The notes under the pieces are model-generated. The model was not told the DNA's origin, did not search any database, and worked only from the letters and a program-made list of their open reading frames with translations. DNA of 40,085 nucleotides from a virus: IMG/VR virus record IMGVR_UViG_3300045612_000399, positions 1 through 40,085 of that record; one strand, given 5' to 3'. Positions within the stretch are counted from its first letter, which is position 1. Each line of letters starts with the position of its first letter. This document shows positions 13,673-27,047 of the stretch, piece by piece. The position numbers were made by a program, and so were the translations under genes.

Positions 13673-14740
13673 TTGCATAACCCTACCTACCGCTACAATC
13701 TAGAACGACGCAAGGTGCTCTGGATGAACCGTGCGGCTGAGACTTTTTTTGGATATGCTCACTCATATTTGACTAAGCTCAAATCGGGACTACTGGAGCT
13801 GGTTGTATTTCCAGACGATCTAGGGATGGCCTATGACCACCTAGAAATAGCTCGAAAACTAGCAGATGGGGAAACACACTGCTGCGCCCTGCGAGTTATT
13901 CCAGGAAACTCAATATCTTCTCTGACAGCAAAGTTTTGTTATATCTGCGTAGAGCATGACGGGGAGCAGGCTGTCGAGATTGAGGTTTACGTCTATAAGA
14001 TGCCGACGTATGAGTACGATATGAGAAACTTGCTTAAGATGGCCGTTCCACGCGGTGAGCTGGTCTTGTACTATCAGCCAATTTGCGATCTAGCAACTGG
14101 CGAACTGTGCGGCTATGAGGCGCTGGCTAGATTGAAACGGGGCACAGAAATCTTTGCTCCTAACTTTTTTCTGCCGCATTTAGACGGGCAGTTAGAAAAA
14201 GACTGGGTTGCACAGCAGATCGATCAAATCGGCGTAACCCTGGATAAGCTGCCCCCTCCGCTTTGGGTTAGTCTGAATGCGTCTGAGCAGGTTTTAGCAA
14301 CTGGGCTGCTAATCACTTTATTGGAAGGGCATCGCCACATAGGGCGGATCGGGATCGAGGTTTTAGAATCAACTAGCCTATCTTGTCCAGATGCCGTGAA
14401 AAACCTTCACCTGCTAAATACAATGGGAATCATTCTTAAGGCAGACGATATCGGGAACAAGGAAACTGGCGGAGGGCTAGACCGTCTACTAGAAGAAGAT
14501 TTATTCTCGGTTATCAAGCTTGACGGCGAGCTAACCCGTCACTTGAATGAACCCAAAAAGGCGAGTATCACAAAACACCTGCTGGGTATCGCTTCTGAGG
14601 CCAGGCTAAAAACTATTGCGGAGTGGGTGACCAGCGCGCCACAGGCTGAATGGTTGGGTCAGCATGGCTGCTTGATGGGTCAAGGCGAACTCTACGGCAT
14701 GCCAGGGCCCTTGGTTTTTGATGACGATTCAGATCGGTAG
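13673..14740 (+). CDS. PAS-EAL cyclic-di-GMP phosphodiesterase
   Basis: 355 residues from a TTG start, 8 bases after the previous stop. Residues ~8-105 resemble a PAS sensor domain (RRKVLWMNRAAETFFGY, then LVVFPDDLGMAYDHLE). Residues ~115-350 form an EAL domain with the catalytic set present: E149 and R153 in GYEALARLK, N202 in WVSLNAS, E229/E232 in IGIEVLES, D258-D259 in LKADDIG, K282 in SVIKLDG, E317 in TIAEWV and Q337 in LMGQGELYG. It should hydrolyse cyclic di-GMP to pGpG. The loop after DD departs from the usual DDFGTG (here DDIGNKETG). There are no membrane segments, so it acts in the cytoplasm. A phage enzyme of this kind could change host motility, biofilm or light-signalling state. 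Confidence 0.85.
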   Translation: MHNPTYRYNLERRKVLWMNRAAETFFGYAHSYLTKLKSGLLELVVFPDDLGMAYDHLEIARKLADGETHCCALRVIPGNSISSLTAKFCYICVEHDGEQAVEIEVYVYKMPTYEYDMRNLLKMAVPRGELVLYYQPICDLATGELCGYEALARLKRGTEIFAPNFFLPHLDGQLEKDWVAQQIDQIGVTLDKLPPPLWVSLNASEQVLATGLLITLLEGHRHIGRIGIEVLESTSLSCPDAVKNLHLLNTMGIILKADDIGNKETGGGLDRLLEEDLFSVIKLDGELTRHLNEPKKASITKHLLGIASEARLKTIAEWVTSAPQAEWLGQHGCLMGQGELYGMPGPLVFDDDSDR

Positions 14741-15756: not shown

Positions 15757-16956
15757 TTACGATGTGATTTCAATCGATCTTTCCAGCTCGCCAAGTTCAT
15801 ACTGACTTGCCTTGGGGAAAGTTCTGTCCAAGATCATTTTTTGTATCAACTCAACCTCTTCAGGCTGAATTAAAACGTATGGCGTCAGCCCTTTTTCTAG
15901 TGCTAATTTTGTCGACTCTGCTTGCAATCCCAAGATTGCATCTAGTGCCCATTGACGAGCCGCCAAAGTCAAACAGCCTTTCTCTCCGTTCTTTTTGCGA
16001 TGCCTGAAAGATTCATCCCAGCGTAGCCGCCAATAAATATCAGCCAAGCGAGTAAAAGGAGCTAAGTGAGTCCAGCGATCTTGCAATATGACCGTTTCTA
16101 GAGCTTTGTCTATTCGGGGTTTTTCTTCGTTGGCTGTGGTCACTAATGGGCAACCGATGCACCCAGTTCTACTGTTCAGCGGTTCATCATTTTCGGGATC
16201 GTAGTCGCCCATTCCATACGTTTCGAATACCCCATCAATAGGGTACCCGTACTCATATTTGGCTTCCACTAGCCAGTCCCAAACATTGCAAACACGCCAG
16301 TGTAATAGAGGCGACAACTTGTATCCTGTCCCGCTCTGGTTTTTGTGAAACCAACCTTGACCACATTCTCCATCTTCTTTATTGCAGCTAGTCGTAATTA
16401 TTCGATCCCTGGCAATGCTTTCTCCCTTACGGATACCGTCAATTCCTAAGAAATCGTTGCCATATTCAGATCTGATCGCTAAACAAATTGAATCAATTTT
16501 TTCTGCCTTAAGACGATTTGTACACCACCTGAAACGATTGTGTGGAGGAGGATAACCCTTACCTAACATGGTCACAAAAAACCGCTCGGTTTTGGGTATC
16601 GTGGTTTCAAGCTGTGGTTCAGTCCGGCGGATCTGCCATCCCTTGGCTTGAAGATGATCGAGCAAACGGTTCGCCGAATCGAGCAAGGACGGCAGCTCCA
16701 TTAATGTATTGCAAAAAACCAGGATTTTACTTGATGGTGATTCAATTTGCTCTGTGGCAATAAGCCAATCGATCAGTGTGGCGGTTGCCGTAGAATCCTT
16801 TCCCCCTGAATAGCCAATAACCCATGCAGAGAGATTGCTGCCATACGTATTGAGGGAGTTGATAGTTAAATCAATTGCCTCTTGCAAAGACAGCAACATT
16901 GATCTTCCGGCTTCGGTGTGCCGAAAAATGTCTAGCTGGGTATGCTTTTTCGCCAC
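15757..16956 (-). CDS. DndC-like / PAPS reductase-family ATP pyrophosphatase
   Basis: 399 residues. The ATP-pyrophosphatase P-loop is IGYSGGKDSTATA (SGGKDST at residues 50-56). Further family marks are LGKGYPPPHNRFRWCTNRLK (C145) and SRTGCIGCPLV (C266, C269), with additional C191 and C198, so a metal or Fe-S cluster is plausible. The 'GKGYPxPxxxFRWCTxRLK' plus 'RxGCxxCxxV' combination is closer to DndC of the DNA phosphorothioation system than to CysH, which reduces PAPS. No dndA, dndD or dndE homologue is visible. It may work in DNA or RNA thiolation or in sulfur metabolism. It begins 23 bases after the zinc-ribbon gene and precedes the nuclease gene. Confidence 0.75.
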   Translation of the reverse strand: MAKKHTQLDIFRHTEAGRSMLLSLQEAIDLTINSLNTYGSNLSAWVIGYSGGKDSTATATLIDWLIATEQIESPSSKILVFCNTLMELPSLLDSANRLLDHLQAKGWQIRRTEPQLETTIPKTERFFVTMLGKGYPPPHNRFRWCTNRLKAEKIDSICLAIRSEYGNDFLGIDGIRKGESIARDRIITTSCNKEDGECGQGWFHKNQSGTGYKLSPLLHWRVCNVWDWLVEAKYEYGYPIDGVFETYGMGDYDPENDEPLNSRTGCIGCPLVTTANEEKPRIDKALETVILQDRWTHLAPFTRLADIYWRLRWDESFRHRKKNGEKGCLTLAARQWALDAILGLQAESTKLALEKGLTPYVLIQPEEVELIQKMILDRTFPKASQYELGELERSIEITS

Positions 16957-18264: not shown

Positions 18265-18510
18265 ATGAATACCCCTGTCGACATCTTTTTAAGTGAGCCT
18301 CAATTCAGGCAACAGGTTTGCTGGTTGCTGGGGCGATCGCTGAGCAAGACGTGGGTTTATCGGTTGAGATCTGATCTGAACTTTACCGGGCTTTTGACCT
18401 ATGACCACGCGAAGGCGCTAGCCTATTACGCTCAGTTACGCAGGGCCAGAGTAGACCAGCCAACAGCGATAGCGAAGACGATTCAATTTATTGAGGAACA
18501 TGGACTATGA
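18265..18510 (+). CDS. Hypothetical protein, possible DNA-binding (81 aa)
   Basis: First gene of the membrane/ATPase operon. The middle (LLGRSLSKTWVYRLRSDLNF) and later LLTYDHAKALAYYAQLRR suggest a small helical DNA-binding protein that could read the AGTGAAC array just upstream. No strong family match. Its stop overlaps the next start (ATGA). Confidence 0.55.
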   Translation: MNTPVDIFLSEPQFRQQVCWLLGRSLSKTWVYRLRSDLNFTGLLTYDHAKALAYYAQLRRARVDQPTAIAKTIQFIEEHGL

Positions 18511-18911
18511 GCATCGCAGATGAGGTTAAGGGTAAGTCTCGGCCTGTCGGCAAGGCTGGCGGTGTATCTAGCGATCTATCGCTGGCGCTGAACGAGCAAG
18601 TCCAAGCCCAAGTCGATTCAATGGTCAATGCTGCGAATGTAGCCCACATGAGCATTGAATATGCATCAGATCAGTTAGCAGGTTATTTCAGCGATGTCCT
18701 GAGTGGACGAAATCTGCTGGAGCGCACGATGCAGAAGGTTCAGGAGCGTATCAAAGAAGAAGGCTGCGTAACTATTGAGTCGGAAACAGTAAACCCGGTG
18801 GTTAATCTGCCTCGTCTTTCCTTCCGTGGATTTAGTTTTAGGAGTCTGTTTTCCGCTGGCAGCCCCGACAACCCTTTTCTACTCGGTGGGAGTGAAGAGG
18901 GGGATGGCTAA
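18507..18911 (+). CDS. Hypothetical protein (134 aa)
   Basis: Start overlaps the upstream stop (ATGA at 18507-18510). N-terminal part basic and Gly-rich; the middle is helical (ALNEQVQAQVDSMVNAANVA, then LLERTMQKVQERIKEE); the C-terminal part is Ser/Gly/Phe-rich and disordered-looking. No domain recognised. Its end overlaps the next gene. Confidence 0.5.
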   Translation: MSIADEVKGKSRPVGKAGGVSSDLSLALNEQVQAQVDSMVNAANVAHMSIEYASDQLAGYFSDVLSGRNLLERTMQKVQERIKEEGCVTIESETVNPVVNLPRLSFRGFSFRSLFSAGSPDNPFLLGGSEEGDG

Positions 18912-19068
18912 CCTCACAGATAACACCAGTGAGCTGAAGTGGGTGGGAGGATTCGCCCTTATGGTCGGCATTTTGTTTGGCTACTACTTGGGATGTCATC
19001 AGGGCGATGTAGAGCCGTCGGTAAGGGGTTTAGCTGTTTCATTTGTGGAGGTTGTAGTAGGTGAGTGA
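18904..19068 (+). CDS. Small single-pass membrane protein (54 aa)
   Basis: ATG 18904 with GAGGGG upstream. One clear membrane helix, KWVGGFALMVGILFGYYLGC, near residues 12-31, followed by an acidic stretch. It overlaps both neighbours and belongs to a string of small membrane proteins that precede the ATPase. Confidence 0.55.
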   Translation: MANLTDNTSELKWVGGFALMVGILFGYYLGCHQGDVEPSVRGLAVSFVEVVVGE

Positions 19069-19528
19069 ACTAATTTGCGAAGAACTGATAGCCCGCCCCT
19101 CGGAAATTCAGGGCTGGACTCAGTACGGATTCATTAACGATTCCGGTGAATTTGAGCCGCTATATGGCCTGGAGTCAGGGCTGAGCCTTCATTCAGCCCT
19201 GTACTACCTGGATGCCGCTGGAGTTTGCGACATTGGCGGGCAGTATCAAATGGGGCAACCCGTCCCGGTTGAATCTGCCCCTCTTGTCGTTGCAAATAAC
19301 ATTGAGGCGGCACCAGCCATTGCCACCGTAGAGGTTCCGCCTACTCCAGTCTCTCAAGTTGAGGCAAATCCTGTAACTGAAGCGTCTGGCGGTGCTTGGT
19401 TTATCGGGATAGCTTTCGCGTTGGCGCTGGGCGCTGCTGGGGTTGTTTGGTCAGCCAAACAGCGATCCAAAAACGATCCAACGCCTGGGGTTAAAATGCC
19501 GAATCCATTTAATAAGGGGGGGGATTGA
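19061..19528 (+). CDS. Single-pass membrane protein with Pro/Ala-rich linker (155 aa)
   Basis: GTG start overlapping the previous stop. Residues 1-80 form a small soluble domain (GWTQYGFINDSGEFEPLYGL) with several aromatic residues, then a Pro/Val/Ala-rich linker (about residues 85-115) and one membrane helix (AWFIGIAFALALGAAGVVWS) before a short basic tail. The layout suggests a soluble domain held away from the membrane. No family recognised. Confidence 0.55.
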   Translation: MSELICEELIARPSEIQGWTQYGFINDSGEFEPLYGLESGLSLHSALYYLDAAGVCDIGGQYQMGQPVPVESAPLVVANNIEAAPAIATVEVPPTPVSQVEANPVTEASGGAWFIGIAFALALGAAGVVWSAKQRSKNDPTPGVKMPNPFNKGGD

Positions 19529-19529
19529 C

Positions 19530-20009
19530 ATGGACAAAGATGAGCTATTGATGTGTGCTCTCGGCTTCGTGGTAGTTGGCGCTGTGATTTTATCTGGTGG
19601 TAGGGATTCTGTTGGAAGCTTTCTACAGTCCAGTAGTGAAATAAAGCAACTCCGGGACAACACAGCTAAAGAGGCTGTTATCTCCGCGTCGCTACAGGAA
19701 TCTGTGAGCGATCGCGCGCAAATCGCCTTGCAACGGTTCCAAAATGGCTGCGTTGTCCACCTTCAGCGTGCCGAGTATCAACGCCCTGAGGATGTGGCTG
19801 TTGGGGCTGTAACAATGGAGTTCAGGCCCATCTCAGAAGGGGAAAGCCCGATCAACTGGCAGACTGGGCAGCCATATTCTGAGGGTACTGTTTTGTGTGA
19901 CTGGTTGGGTGGTGTAGGGGTCATTCAAGGCGGAACGGTCACAGACTACTCTTTCAGCGGCACGGACGTTTCGGATTTGGTGCGCAAGAACGTGGAGAAG
20001 TTTCAGTGA
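19530..20009 (+). CDS. N-terminally anchored membrane protein (159 aa)
   Basis: ATG 19530 has a G-rich site (AAGGGGGGGG) 6 bases upstream, which decides the start. Residues ~5-23 (ELLMCALGFVVVGAVILSGG) are a membrane anchor or signal anchor; the rest is soluble, first helical (LRDNTAKEAVISASLQESVS) then beta-rich. It could be periplasmic. Function unknown. Confidence 0.55.
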   Translation: MDKDELLMCALGFVVVGAVILSGGRDSVGSFLQSSSEIKQLRDNTAKEAVISASLQESVSDRAQIALQRFQNGCVVHLQRAEYQRPEDVAVGAVTMEFRPISEGESPINWQTGQPYSEGTVLCDWLGGVGVIQGGTVTDYSFSGTDVSDLVRKNVEKFQ

Positions 20010-20497
20010 AATACCTCTTTCTGGTTATCGCGGCATTGATCGCCGTGTCATCAGCGGCGGCCTACCATGAGCTAGGGCTGAAACTATTTGGCTTTCTTGG
20101 GGGAGTGGGCGCGATCGCTGTTTTTGCCCTAGTTCAGGGGTTTGAATTGAAACCCATCTTCCTGACAGGAGGGCACTGCAATATTTTTGGTGGTCTGTCT
20201 AAAGCTATAGCTGGACGCCCTGCCAACTTACCGGAGACTGACCCAGAGGAATTACTTGATGCCTCTGCTTGGGCCACTTTTGGCTATGCGGTTGATTTTG
20301 TTGCCGGACTCATAGTATGGCCTGTAGTTGATAATTGGGCGCTAATCAGAGTAGGAGGGCTGACCTACCCTGATGTCAACCTTAAGCATTTAGGGATGAT
20401 CTTAGCCTGTGTTTTCCTGTTGCAATGGTGCGTTCAGCAGTATTTGAGGCGGGGCGGAAAGCTGTTTAAGAGGATGGGAGCTAATGTCAAGCGCTGA
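20006..20497 (+). CDS. Polytopic membrane protein (163 aa)
   Basis: GTG start overlapping the previous stop, with GGAGAAG upstream. Membrane segments: KYLFLVIAALIAVSSAAAYH, then LFGFLGGVGAIAVFALVQGF, a region around WATFGYAVDFVAGLIVWPVV, and MILACVFLLQWCVQQYL, so about four. Short basic C-terminus. No family recognised; likely part of the same membrane complex as its neighbours. Confidence 0.6.
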   Translation: MKYLFLVIAALIAVSSAAAYHELGLKLFGFLGGVGAIAVFALVQGFELKPIFLTGGHCNIFGGLSKAIAGRPANLPETDPEELLDASAWATFGYAVDFVAGLIVWPVVDNWALIRVGGLTYPDVNLKHLGMILACVFLLQWCVQQYLRRGGKLFKRMGANVKR

Positions 20498-20927
20498 TAA
20501 AGAGATAAAAACTCTGATTCCAGGAAGTAATGGTGAGTATGTTCGCCATCTACTCCAAATTCATTTTGCTGGAAAGATCCCCAAAGCCCATGTGCCTCTA
20601 GGGATCATTGGTTTTGTTTTAACTGCCTCAATCTCAACAATGCCGGGGCTGCCATTTGCGGCGGCGGCGCTATTCGCTTTTGACGCGGCCAGGAGACTCA
20701 GGAAGAATCGCAGACTTGTAAGCGCCGCTTATGCCGATCCGTCTGTCCTCTATATGCGACTGAAGCCAGACGAGCAAGAAGTAGTTCGTAATTTCTTCAG
20801 TCGCTATCCCATGGAATTGCCCGCAGGAAGAATGAGGCCGGATAGCCAAAAAAAGGACTCGGCCCCTCAGCAGAAACAGCAGCAACAGAAGGGGCAGCAA
20901 CAGCAGCAACAGAAGGCAGCAAACTAG
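20484..20927 (+). CDS. Membrane protein with C-terminal poly-Gln tail; likely 0-frame part of a frameshift fusion (147 aa)
   Basis: ATG with GGGAG upstream, overlapping the previous gene. One or two membrane segments (VPLGIIGFVLTASISTM and a short Pro/Ala-rich PGLPFAAAALFAFDAA) lead into a basic and helical cytoplasmic part (RRLRKNRRLVSAAY, LKPDEQEVVRNFFSRYPMEL). The zero-frame end is a Gln-rich tail of about 25 residues. At codons CAA-AAA-AAG (20847-20855) the frame crosses a slippery heptamer; a -1 shift there continues without a stop into the ATPase at 21727. Either both products are made or the tail is an artefact of a one-base deletion in the A-run. Confidence 0.65.
   Translation: MSSADKEIKTLIPGSNGEYVRHLLQIHFAGKIPKAHVPLGIIGFVLTASISTMPGLPFAAAALFAFDAARRLRKNRRLVSAAYADPSVLYMRLKPDEQEVVRNFFSRYPMELPAGRMRPDSQKKDSAPQQKQQQQKGQQQQQQKAAN
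20849..20895 (+). promoter_or_regulatory. Candidate programmed -1 ribosomal frameshift signal
   Basis: The heptamer A-AAA-AAG (20849-20855) is in the zero frame of the upstream gene, as required for a -1 slip. After a 6-base spacer, GCCCCT (20862-20867) can pair with AGGGGC (20890-20895), a GC-rich stem around a 22-base loop. The -1 frame has a stop at 20843, just before the slip site, and then stays open through the ATPase. Confidence 0.55.
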
Positions 20928-20974
20928 ACTCACAGCAACTCCCTGCTCCATTTATAGAATTCCTGTCCAAACAG

Positions 20975-21727
20975 TTGCATTTGTTGATTGCCGCTACGAC
21001 TGGTAGCGGCAAGACCTGGCTACTGCGGGCGCTGGCTACCACGCTGTCTAATCGTGGGGCGAGTATCGTTATTTGTGATCCCAAGGGTAGTCGGTGGGGC
21101 GCTTTATCCCCTGCTGTCGTGAGGGTTCAGGCAGCAAACGATTTCCTCGAAGTCTTGAGATCTGCTCATAGAGAATTGCAGCGCCGTAGCATTCTCCTTA
21201 GTCAAGACAAACCCGTAGGTTCCCATGTTTGGGCGATCTTTGATGAGTGGATATTGATAAGGGGGAAGTGCTCTACCTTAGAGGCATCTGAACGAGCAGA
21301 AGCAGAAACCTTGCTGCTGGATATTATTGCCGCAGGGCGAGAGTTAAATATTCATCTAATAATTGTCAATCAATCTCACTACCTGGGAGATCTGTCGCTA
21401 TTAGGCAACAAAAATACGTTTAGTTCTGGACTAAGGGACAACCTTTGCACGCTTGGCCTTGGTTGCAAGCATACCTACGACAACCAGGGCAACTCAATAA
21501 GGGGCAATAGTAAAACGATTGACTCTATGCTGGCGGATCCGGCACTCGTCAAGCGCCGGGATGATAGACAGAAAGCCATGGAAGCATACGCCGATATACG
21601 CGATCGCGTAAATACAAATAGGGTCTTCTGTATATACGCTGATCAGATCTATGTCGGTGCAACGCCTAATATTGAAATTCCTGAGCTGAGCAGCCTGCAG
21701 CCGTTCGGTAGATACACAAATAGGTAA
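20975..21727 (+). CDS. FtsK/HerA-like DNA-translocase ATPase (probably expressed by -1 frameshift from the upstream gene)
   Basis: From the first possible start (TTG 20975) 250 residues. Walker A is LIAATTGSGKTWLLRA, followed by CDPKGSRWGAL; Walker B is HVWAIFDEW; a later AGRELNIHLIIVNQS is a sensor-like strand. This fits the FtsK/HerA/TraD class of hexameric DNA pumps, in a form seen on cyanobacterial plasmids. The TTG has no ribosome binding site and lies only seven residues before Walker A. The same frame is open and looks coding upstream (PAPFIEFLSKQLH) back to a stop at 20843, with no ATG, GTG or TTG. So the protein probably begins as the upstream membrane protein and reaches this frame by a -1 shift, giving a membrane-anchored ATPase as in FtsK. 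Confidence 0.7.
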   Translation: MHLLIAATTGSGKTWLLRALATTLSNRGASIVICDPKGSRWGALSPAVVRVQAANDFLEVLRSAHRELQRRSILLSQDKPVGSHVWAIFDEWILIRGKCSTLEASERAEAETLLLDIIAAGRELNIHLIIVNQSHYLGDLSLLGNKNTFSSGLRDNLCTLGLGCKHTYDNQGNSIRGNSKTIDSMLADPALVKRRDDRQKAMEAYADIRDRVNTNRVFCIYADQIYVGATPNIEIPELSSLQPFGRYTNR

Positions 21728-21929: not shown

Positions 21930-22547
21930 TTACCGCAGATGCAGCCACAGCACGATTAGAAAAACCGCGATCGCTATCAGCAACATTCGCCAGAGCCATT
22001 CTGAAATTGACCTGGGGCCATTCATCAGTAGGCGGTAGGCGGCTTCGACTGGGCTATTGATGGTATCTGTTTGGGCTGGTGGGGTGGCGGCTTTCCGTTC
22101 CAGTTCAGCAGCGATCGCCTTTTCTAGGGTTACGTTGACGGTTGGAGTATCGTCTTCAAAGTCATCCTCCTCGCCGCTCCAGGTCTCATCAATTGTGCTG
22201 GTAGCAACAAAACCTTTATCGCTGAAACCGAATAGATAGGTTGCTCCATCATTGACGTTCTGCCATGAGTCAGATAGCGCTATTTTTTCCTCTCGAACCA
22301 TCTTGTATGTGGGGTTTCGGCCAATGTGCATTAGCTGCCACTGATCGCGTTGATACTCTGTTAAGCATCTAAGCTTTGCTTGCTGGCGGCTAACAGATGG
22401 ATGATCAATATCAATGTCGGGTTTGTTTTTAGGGGTTGATCGACCGATGATCCATTCTTTCCCCACATCAAAAGCATCCGTGTCCAGGATTCGGGGTTCT
22501 GGTGCAAGTCGATCGCCGTCAAAAAATGTTAACGAGAGTCTAGCCAT
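21930..22547 (-). CDS. FHA-domain protein with C-terminal membrane anchor (205 aa)
   Basis: ATG 22547 is preferred because GGAAGGAA stands before it; an ATG at 22571 adds 8 residues. Residues ~30-110 are a forkhead-associated domain: EWIIGRSTPKNKPD, then DHPSVSRQQAKLR and a WQLMHIGRNPTYKM segment. FHA domains bind phosphothreonine; GR and SR are present, but the usual His of S-R-x-H is Gln. An acidic and Thr-rich linker (SGEEDDFEDDTPTVNVTLEK) leads to a C-terminal membrane helix (WRMLLIAIAVFLIVLWLHL). It is the last gene of the late leftward operon. A tail-anchored FHA protein is unusual in a phage; a link to host Ser/Thr kinase signalling is inference. Confidence 0.75.
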   Translation of the reverse strand: MARLSLTFFDGDRLAPEPRILDTDAFDVGKEWIIGRSTPKNKPDIDIDHPSVSRQQAKLRCLTEYQRDQWQLMHIGRNPTYKMVREEKIALSDSWQNVNDGATYLFGFSDKGFVATSTIDETWSGEEDDFEDDTPTVNVTLEKAIAAELERKAATPPAQTDTINSPVEAAYRLLMNGPRSISEWLWRMLLIAIAVFLIVLWLHLR

Positions 22548-22598
22548 GAGTTCCTTCCCGTAGTGAATCATGCCCCCGTCATCAGAATTCCCTACTGA

Positions 22599-23855
22599 CT
22601 AGACAGGTAAGCCTGTTGCTGTAGTCTCGCCAAACCACTGAATACTAAATTGATGGTTATTTGCTCCAGAAAGGTTGGCTACTAAGGCCGTGTTGCTGCT
22701 TAGTCTGATCTCGGTACCAAATGGATAAACCTCTGAAAGTCCGATCCCGTCTGCGGTCGTTCGGATAATAGCTAGCGTGGACCCTGCCGCGCCGTCTTTA
22801 ATCAATATTGTTGTAGCGTTAGCTGTTATGTTTTGTACTCGGATAGCACGAATACAAATCCGAACCCCAGCGCCCTGGGCACTGATTAACGTATTGTCTC
22901 CGCTACTCCCCGCCGTTGTTCCCAAAAACTGCTGATTTGGGTAAAGACGCGCCAGGAATCGCTTATACAGAGAATTCAGGCTAAACGTCCCAGTATTGGA
23001 GGTAGCCGCCGCGTCTGACGTAGGGCCAATGCGATCGCTTACTCCTACTAATGTTGTCTCTGTCGTTGCCCCGGTGGGCAATGAAACCGTCCCAGTTATG
23101 TTAGTAACGTTCCATGCTCCAGACTGTGTGGCGGCTACTGTTCCATCCACGGTTAGGCTTCCGCCGCCGTCGGCAACATTCCAAGTTCCAGACTGTGTAG
23201 CGGCTACCGTCCCAGACACCGTAACAGCCCCGTCCACTGTGATACTGCCACCACCGTCCACGATCGTCACGTTGGGAATCGTAACGATATCGACCTGCAT
23301 TTCAGTGCCACTAACCGCCCCCGCGATCGTCGTTAGTGAGGCGTTGCCACTAGTCTGAAGGGCTGATGTAGCCGCTCCAGTAGGAAGCGAAACTGTTCCC
23401 GTGACGTTGGTGACGTTCCACGCACCGGACTGGGTAGCGGCAACAGTGCCAGACACCGTGAGAGTGGGAGCCGAAACAATATCGACCTGCATTTCAGTGC
23501 CACTAACCGCCCCCGCAATCGTTGTTAGTGAGGCGTTGTCTACCGTGATGCTACCACCGCCATCCGCAAAGTTCCACGTTCCAGACTGGGTAGCGGCAAC
23601 AGTGCCAGACACCGTGAGAGTGGGAGCCGAAACAATATCGACCTGCATTTCAGTGCCAATAACCGCCCCCGCGATCGTCGTTAGTGAAGCGTTACCACTG
23701 GTCTGGAGAGTTGAAGTGGCAGGGTCAATCTGTGTACCGCTTGTGTTTTCTACTCTGTGGGTCACTCGGTAGGCATTGGCCCCATTAGTTCCATCTCCGT
23801 CTGCCTTGACATAAACAAGGTTACCGTTCCCGTCTTTAGCTGCTAAATTAGCCAC
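22599..23855 (-). CDS. Repetitive fibre-like structural protein (418 aa)
   Basis: GTG start with GGGGGAAG upstream. Residues ~20-260 consist of near-identical beta repeats (SGTVAATQSGTWNV, LTTIAGAVSGTEMQVDIV, ADGGGSITVD) of the kind found in many phage and phage-like structural proteins. The C-terminal ~130 residues (SLYKRFLARLYPNQQFLGTT onwards) form a separate, non-repetitive beta-rich domain. It is likely a virion surface or fibre component. The DNA carries long direct repeats (see 23281-23710). Confidence 0.6.
   Translation of the reverse strand: MANLAAKDGNGNLVYVKADGDGTNGANAYRVTHRVENTSGTQIDPATSTLQTSGNASLTTIAGAVIGTEMQVDIVSAPTLTVSGTVAATQSGTWNFADGGGSITVDNASLTTIAGAVSGTEMQVDIVSAPTLTVSGTVAATQSGAWNVTNVTGTVSLPTGAATSALQTSGNASLTTIAGAVSGTEMQVDIVTIPNVTIVDGGGSITVDGAVTVSGTVAATQSGTWNVADGGGSLTVDGTVAATQSGAWNVTNITGTVSLPTGATTETTLVGVSDRIGPTSDAAATSNTGTFSLNSLYKRFLARLYPNQQFLGTTAGSSGDNTLISAQGAGVRICIRAIRVQNITANATTILIKDGAAGSTLAIIRTTADGIGLSEVYPFGTEIRLSSNTALVANLSGANNHQFSIQWFGETTATGLPV
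23281..23710. repeat. Long direct repeats inside the 418-residue fibre gene
   Basis: A segment of about 75 identical bases followed by ~35 near-identical bases occurs at about 23428-23540 and again 156 bp further at 23584-23696, with a partial third copy at 23286-23350. The 156-bp unit encodes 52 residues. Such repeats can expand or contract by recombination. Confidence 0.7.
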
Positions 23856-25418: not shown

Positions 25419-27047
25419 TTACCTCCAAGCGGCTGGAATGCTGGCGTAGTTTGACAGTGAGGTGCCGCTGTGATTACGAAAACAAGCACTACTATTGGAA
25501 ACTCCACCCGTTCCATAGTTACAGTTCCACAAGTCAGGGGCCGTCCCTTGAGGCCCAGTGGGGGTGAATCTGAATGTGTCCTTGAAGTTTATTGTTTTAT
25601 TGAGGAACCGTGTGCTTTGCTCCCCAGGATTATAAAAAATATCGGCTGTGATAACTGCGGCGCAAGAGGTTATAAAAAAGGTGCCCTGGAAATTAGTGGC
25701 TGCTGTGTTGTTACGGAACAGACCCGCAGGAATAGATCCTGTTAGTCCAGTACAAACATTGAAAGTATTTTCAAAGGTAGCAACTGCTGTATTGCTATCA
25801 AACAGTCCCGAAGGAATAGATGTTAATCCAGTGCAGCCAGAGAAAGTACTCGTAAAAGTAGTAACCGCTGTATTGGTGGCAAACAACCCTGACGGAATTG
25901 AACCCGTTAGTCCAGTGCAGCCAGAGAAAGTACTCGTAAAAGTAGTAACCGCTGTATTCAGGCGGAACAGTCCCGCTGGGATTGCCCCGGTTAGGTTGTT
26001 GCAACTGTGAAAAGTCTCCGAAAAGCTGGTGACCGCCGTGTTTGAGTTGAACAAACCGCTAGGGATAGATCCGGTTAAAGCACTGCAACCTCTAAATATT
26101 TGGTAGAAAGTAGTAACCAATGTATTGTTATTAAAAAGCCCTGATGGAATTGATCCGGTCAACCCGCCACAGTTGTAAAGTACAGAGCTAAAATTAGTAA
26201 CCAATGTATTGTTATTGAATAATCCAGACGGAATAGATCCGGTTAAACCAGAACAGCCCTCAAGTGTACTAGCGAAAGTAGTAACTGCGGTACAGGCGCT
26301 AAATAAATTGCTAGGAATTGATCCGGTTAAGCCGCTACAACCTTGAAAAGTTGCGGAAAAAGTAGTAACTAATGTGTTATTGCTAAACAATCCAGACGGA
26401 ATTGATCCGGTCAATCCGCCACAGTTTTGAAATGTACTAGCGAAAGTCGTAACTGCGGCATTAGTGCTAAACAGTCCAGCAGGAATAGAACCAGTCAGGC
26501 CAGGACAACCTGTGAATGTCTGAAAAAAAGTAGTGTTTCCCGTGTTAAGACTAAACAGCCCCGATGGAATTGATCCGGTTAGGCCAGTACAGTTGGCAAA
26601 AGTATTTGAAAAGCTGCCTGCTGCCGGATTGTGATCGAACAGTCCAGACGGAATACTTGTTAGCCTGGCGCAATTGCCGAACAGGCTAGCAAAGCTAGAC
26701 AGCCCCGGAAAATTACACATCACCCCGGTGGAAATCAAGCGGTTTCTGGTAGTGGCGTTACTCCCCAAGCGGAAAGAGCCACCAGAGCTAAAACTGCCAC
26801 TAATTTTTATTGTATAGGTGCCCGCGTTAGTGTACGTTTTCGTCTTTTGGCCCGTTGTCGTGTAGTTATTGTTGGTACTATCGCCCCAGTCAACCGTAAT
26901 ATTGATGCCAGAGCCAGACGCGATATTGACGGTGTAGTCTTCGTTTGGCGCGGATGTGACAACCGTCAGATCCCATGTGGTAGGAGCCGCCGATGCCGCC
27001 ACAGGGCTGATCAAATTCCCTAAGCTTCGCCCCTGAAGTAGCGGCAT
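25419..27047 (-). CDS. Adhesin-like tail protein with about 13 leucine-rich 28-residue repeats (542 aa)
   Basis: Residues ~20-110 contain a PKD-like beta domain (NITVDWGDSTNNNY, then TYTNAGTYTIKISG). Residues ~120-480 consist of about 13 copies of a 28-residue unit with consensus TF..TF.GC.GLTGSIPSGLF..NTAVT, related to BspA-type leucine-rich surface proteins. The C-terminal ~60 residues (GTAPDLWNCNYGTGGVSNSS) are typical of a surface-exposed cap domain. It probably binds a host surface ligand. Located in the fibre gene cluster. Confidence 0.65.
   Translation of the reverse strand: MPLLQGRSLGNLISPVAASAAPTTWDLTVVTSAPNEDYTVNIASGSGINITVDWGDSTNNNYTTTGQKTKTYTNAGTYTIKISGSFSSGGSFRLGSNATTRNRLISTGVMCNFPGLSSFASLFGNCARLTSIPSGLFDHNPAAGSFSNTFANCTGLTGSIPSGLFSLNTGNTTFFQTFTGCPGLTGSIPAGLFSTNAAVTTFASTFQNCGGLTGSIPSGLFSNNTLVTTFSATFQGCSGLTGSIPSNLFSACTAVTTFASTLEGCSGLTGSIPSGLFNNNTLVTNFSSVLYNCGGLTGSIPSGLFNNNTLVTTFYQIFRGCSALTGSIPSGLFNSNTAVTSFSETFHSCNNLTGAIPAGLFRLNTAVTTFTSTFSGCTGLTGSIPSGLFATNTAVTTFTSTFSGCTGLTSIPSGLFDSNTAVATFENTFNVCTGLTGSIPAGLFRNNTAATNFQGTFFITSCAAVITADIFYNPGEQSTRFLNKTINFKDTFRFTPTGPQGTAPDLWNCNYGTGGVSNSSACFRNHSGTSLSNYASIPAAWR
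25730..26700. repeat. 84-bp tandem repeats encoding 28-residue LRR-like units
   Basis: The word GATCCGGT recurs at 84-base intervals (for example 26152 and 26236) and marks successive units of the adhesin gene; one unit is 81 bp. Copies differ by a few bases each. Confidence 0.75.

Follow-up and report, generated by a model that had tools for sequence, protein, structure and literature searches.

In E. coli dnaX, the tau and gamma proteins are long and short forms of one gene, and their site combines the heptamer A_AAA_AAG with an upstream SD-like element and a downstream hairpin. In transposases of the IS3 and IS1 families, a longer, active protein arises when ribosomes shift by -1 at A_AAA_AAG or a related heptamer and continue in a second frame. 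In tssM of Citrobacter rodentium, an A-run within the gene for a membrane protein leads to truncated and full-length membrane proteins. The TcpA-type conjugation coupling proteins (pCW3) are FtsK-like motors.

The locus described here lies in a virus record from IMG/VR that is 40,085 bases long; the whole of this record, which we call the window, was analysed. The locus shares the heptamer, a possible SD-like stimulator, a downstream stem and a proposed pair of long and short products with dnaX. It differs from dnaX in gene family, in that the shift in the window would give the long form, in its weak hairpin, and in being known from sequence alone; the layout in the relatives of the window is dnaX-like, since a shift there would lead to the short form. 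As in the IS3 and IS1 elements, the proposed shift would join two frames into a longer protein; however, this is not a transposase and its relatives do not have the split. The tssM run is A11 and acts in transcription, whereas the window has A7. TcpA was the top PDB fold match of a low-confidence model of the ATPase encoded here, at 18-21% identity, and the present gene belongs to a phage.

A split gene in a tailed-phage record

Matches to portal, terminase, and tape-measure proteins give the window the gene set of a tailed phage. Its portal protein is 64-65% identical to those of four IMG/VR contigs and about 30% identical to those of Synechococcus siphophages (e.g. S-CRES3 and S-CBS2). On the basis of this portal resemblance, a cyanobacterial host is likely.

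Several other genes of this phage-like record were recognised. An EAL-domain protein (13673-14740; Pfam EAL, E 5.6e-31) could act on host cyclic-di-GMP. A DndC-like protein of the PAPS-reductase family (15757-16956) scored 120.8 bits against NCBIfam DNA_S_dndC, under the cut-off of 290.4, and no further dnd genes were recognised among the proteins scanned. An FHA-domain protein with a hydrophobic C-terminus (21930-22571) is encoded on the opposite strand directly past the cassette that contains the split gene. The gene at 22599-23855 encodes a repetitive protein in which SGTVAATQSGTWNV-like units recur, and the tail-side genes include 25419-27047, encoding a long protein built of GLTGSIPSGLF-type repeats.

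The split gene and its surroundings have the following features; the SD-like element, the heptamer, and the Walker motifs were read from the sequence, and the stem arms from sequence and folding.

18265 to 20497, plus strand: upstream cassette genes, for a small DNA-binding-like protein, a soluble protein, and small membrane proteins (hydrophobic segments), with homologues in the same order in the relatives G003 and G005
20484 to 20927, plus strand: frame-0 ORF of 147 aa, with an N-terminal membrane anchor, a linker, and a Gln-rich tail past the slip site
20834 to 20837, plus strand: SD-like GAGG, a possible stimulator, 11 nt upstream of the heptamer
20846 to 21727, plus strand: -1 frame ORF, linker and HerA/FtsK-like ATPase, 53-56% identical to relatives
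20849 to 20855, plus strand: slippery heptamer A_AAA_AAG, in phase, inside the A7 run at 20848-20854
20862 to 20867, plus strand: 5' arm (GCCCCT) of a weak 6-bp stem
20870 to 20917, plus strand: CAG/CAA-rich linker repeat, a 24-nt unit present twice, which reads as Gln-rich in frame 0 and as Ala/Thr/Glu-rich in frame -1
20890 to 20895, plus strand: 3' arm (AGGGGC) of the weak 6-bp stem
20993 to 21016, plus strand: Walker A, ATTGSGKT
21227 to 21247, plus strand: Walker B region, VWAIFDE

A sequence-only reading of the window had described two frames that overlap at a slippery heptamer, and this observation was confirmed throughout. The frame-0 ORF crosses A_AAA_AAG in the canonical X_XXY_YYZ phase, inside the two-frame overlap; the A7 run is followed by GG and the frame-0 codons are AGC CAA AAA AAG GAC. 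Frame 0 stops at TAG 20925-20927. In the -1 frame, the TAG at 20843-20845 is followed by open sequence up to TAA 21725-21727, and the overlap of the two frames is 82 nt. The ATPase frame does lack a credible start, as had been stated: its sole listed start is the TTG at 20975, ahead of which no ribosome-binding site is visible in the sequence. The SD-like GAGG had been left unmentioned. Joined through the -1 frame, the product of the window would be 414 aa long.

The 147-aa ORF has a hydrophobic segment at residues 41-59 and is 34-39% identical to the N-terminal part of a single ORF in the relatives. By its profile matches, the ATPase is placed in the HerA/FtsK superfamily and falls outside FtsK/SpoIIIE proper: it scored 31.0 bits against the HerA profile DUF87 (cut-off 23.2), with Walker A and B present, and stayed below the cut-off of 24 for the FtsK_SpoIIIE profile (19.3 bits, and 17.3 bits in a second scan). 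Structure predictions from three to five sequences had pLDDT values of 42.5 and 48.7, too low to serve as more than a lead. Several of its cassette neighbours are small membrane proteins, judged by their hydrophobic segments. It could be guessed that the predicted motor transports DNA through a membrane. A defence role, read from a weak mad8 match, was set aside, as the match covers only the ATPase core.

The fused gene of the relatives and its linker

The homologue search covered the whole IMG/VR records behind the portal relatives. In two of these, both halves share one open frame, which is 433 codons long in G003 and 425 in G005 (430 and 422 aa from the ATG); a third, G008, has the same cassette, with a gene whose only interruptions are the record ends. 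Between the window and the relatives the ATPase is 53-56% and the anchor 34-40% identical, and the cassette homologues that were detected keep the same order in G003, G005, and the window. Because the continuous ORFs of the relatives hold both halves, a fusion of anchor and ATPase is well supported, whichever way the frames of the window are joined. The proposal that the two are one protein was borne out, as the relatives have an ordinary start and the same gene order; the homologues keep the membrane partner in frame, and none was found to be a partner-free ATPase with an ordinary start. The split arrangement itself is unique to the window, the relatives encoding the fusion in frame 0.

No close relative spanning the A7 run was found among viral contigs (by protein, alignment, and DNA-pattern searches) or genome contigs, and phage and plasmid records held no close match to the A7 locus. 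G001 and G006, contigs that belong to the phage of the window, stop short of the split gene. A split ORF in G003 (L021:7085-7660) was considered as a second frameshift and set aside; a real gene may lie antisense to it.

The unbroken gene of the relatives has a slippery site of its own. At the start of the linker there is an in-phase C_CCA_AAA, followed by 6 nt and a 9-bp stem, CCCCCUCUG-GAGA-CGGAGGGGG.

L007:1407 to 1441 (in G005; the same in G003 and G008): C_CCA_AAA and 9-bp GAGA-loop hairpin, candidate frameshift site

This GC hairpin has a z of -2.46, and it is the strongest behind any in-phase ORF heptamer of the records (81 in G005, 57 in G003); it is matched at 0.04% (G005) and 0.12% (G003) of sampled codon positions, values to be read with the knowledge that the three relatives are mutually close, hence nearly one observation, and that the hairpin was picked out post hoc. 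In all three, the -1 frame has a stop 3 codons before C_CCA_AAA and then runs for 52 codons, ending ahead of the ATPase. From the heptamer to this -1 stop, synonymous differences numbered 4/48, 3/53, and 5/50 for the three pairs, as compared to 86/313, 60/242, and 74/236 elsewhere (permutation p 0.0009-0.002 per pair, the pairs being non-independent and the cassette mosaic). Recombination within this mosaic cassette may be the cause of the low synonymous change. No SD-like element was seen upstream of C_CCA_AAA in the relatives. In E. coli, C_CCA_AAA shifts without stimulators, and A_AAA_AAG is likewise frameshift-prone (PMC4066793).

An ungapped alignment of the window with the relatives, begun at the AGC codon that precedes the slip site, has a CCCCTC arm at the same codon position in both, preceded by the heptamer and a 6-nt spacer. 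This suggests that the two slip sites match in codon position, within a region of low complexity.

Alternatives to a programmed shift

The likelihoods given here and below are our judgement and were not computed. The strongest alternative, to which we give not quite an even chance, is that an ordinary fused gene was broken by the loss of one base, in the A-run or at another point of 20846-20927, through either an assembly error or a real recent mutation, and that nothing is programmed. It is favored by the continuous ORF of the relatives, and the split is known from a single sequence; in the GeneTack survey of prokaryotic frame transitions, such singleton frameshifts were mostly indels or sequencing errors (PMC3711429). 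The A7 run is also the longest homopolymer of the split gene.

As a null for the overlap we used random one-base deletions in the other genes of the window. These left a median two-frame overlap of 73 nt, so that the 82 nt of the split gene is ordinary. An in-phase A_AAA_AAG occurred in the overlap of 0.5% of random deletions and any slippery heptamer in 4.8%. Among deletions within A/T runs of at least 6 the counts were 1/30 and 7/30, respectively; an indel located in the A-run itself would therefore make a slip-like heptamer less remarkable. An SD-like GAGG at comparable spacing (11 nt) has a chance of about 6%. The stem that had been proposed (20862-20867 with 20890-20895) can form, 6 nt past the heptamer, but it is not stronger than chance (z -0.57): 67% of 60-nt CDS windows fold equally well or better, and downstream folding at A_AAA_AAG ranks 10th of the 51 heptamers in the window. 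Downstream structure is absent from some proven bacterial -1 sites. Codon usage in the overlap does not tell the coding frame, and Rfam gave no frameshift-element matches. By itself, the split in the window is indistinguishable from a one-base indel.

On the other hand, no second frame break was found among the window genes that match relatives. In IMG sample 3300044997, two contigs align with the window along stretches of about 4.9 and 5.6 kb and are identical to it there save for a few bases at the contig ends; these 10.5 kb contain no indel, with a dozen homopolymers of at least 6 inside, while the A7 run lies outside the matched stretch. This agreement argues for an accurate window sequence, with the assembly possibly not independent of that of the window. 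An old inactivating mutation is unlikely because the ATPase frame is without a stop through 293 codons. A one-base deletion also leaves the coincidence of the window slip site with the slip-and-hairpin site of the relatives to be accounted for. As a separate observation on sample 3300044997, it holds the same-phage contigs L040 (G006) and L041 (G001), nearly identical to the window over the 10.5 kb, and L042 (G007), a 90% identical sister; the differences cluster at the ends of the contigs, a pattern suggestive of assembly breaks at points of strain variation.

RNA polymerase could instead slip on the A7 run, so that some of the mRNA would carry one extra A and yield the same 414-aa protein with an identical junction peptide. 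A poly-A precedent exists in tssM of C. rodentium (PMC4256274); however, that site is A11, transcriptional slippage usually requires runs of at least 8 (PMC3711429), and the C_CCA_AAA site of the relatives has no such run. We consider this explanation very improbable. Reinitiation of a separate ATPase at TTG 20975, which lies 47 nt past the stop at 20925 and just before the strand preceding Walker A, is hardly credible given the lack of a visible ribosome-binding site, the match of the ATPase reading upstream of this TTG (to 20957) with the relatives, and the fusion of both domains there.

A candidate slip site between anchor and motor

The explanation that we favor, with confidence about evenly divided for and against, is that phages of this group have a -1 frameshift site between anchor and motor, with the long form encoded in frame 0 in the relatives and reached through the -1 frame in the window. 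The locus would then be a single gene in which a cyanophage-like virus encodes a membrane-anchored HerA/FtsK-like motor, and the -1 site would lie in the linker of this motor. In the window, most ribosomes would pass A_AAA_AAG in frame 0 and make the 147-aa anchor with its Gln-rich tail, while a minority would slip into the -1 frame and make the 414-aa anchored ATPase. In the relatives the arrangement would be inverted: frame 0 would give the motor of 422-430 aa, and ribosomes slipping at C_CCA_AAA, ahead of the strong hairpin, would produce a motorless anchor that ends in a 52-aa tail. In both lineages one message would thus provide an anchor without a motor and an anchor with one. We infer that slipping occurs and that both products matter.

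The sequence-only reading had interpreted the split as a frameshift with two products, and this is partly supported. The relatives have a slippery heptamer and a very strong hairpin at the corresponding position of the linker, and the window has its SD-like element; a short and a long product are therefore plausible for the family. The support is weaker for the window, where the split is a singleton and the stem weak. More doubtful than probable, and suggested tentatively, is the further step that the outcome of the shift was inverted in evolution, leading to the motorless form in the lineage with C_CCA_AAA and a hairpin and to the full motor in the lineage with A_AAA_AAG and an SD-like element.

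If a frameshift site is not the explanation, the split is a single indel in one contig and the hairpin of the relatives is the sole thing left to explain. If it is, a slip site has been retained in this family while the frame of the long product was swapped, and the phage could adjust the proportion of membrane subunits with and without a motor, all made from a single message.
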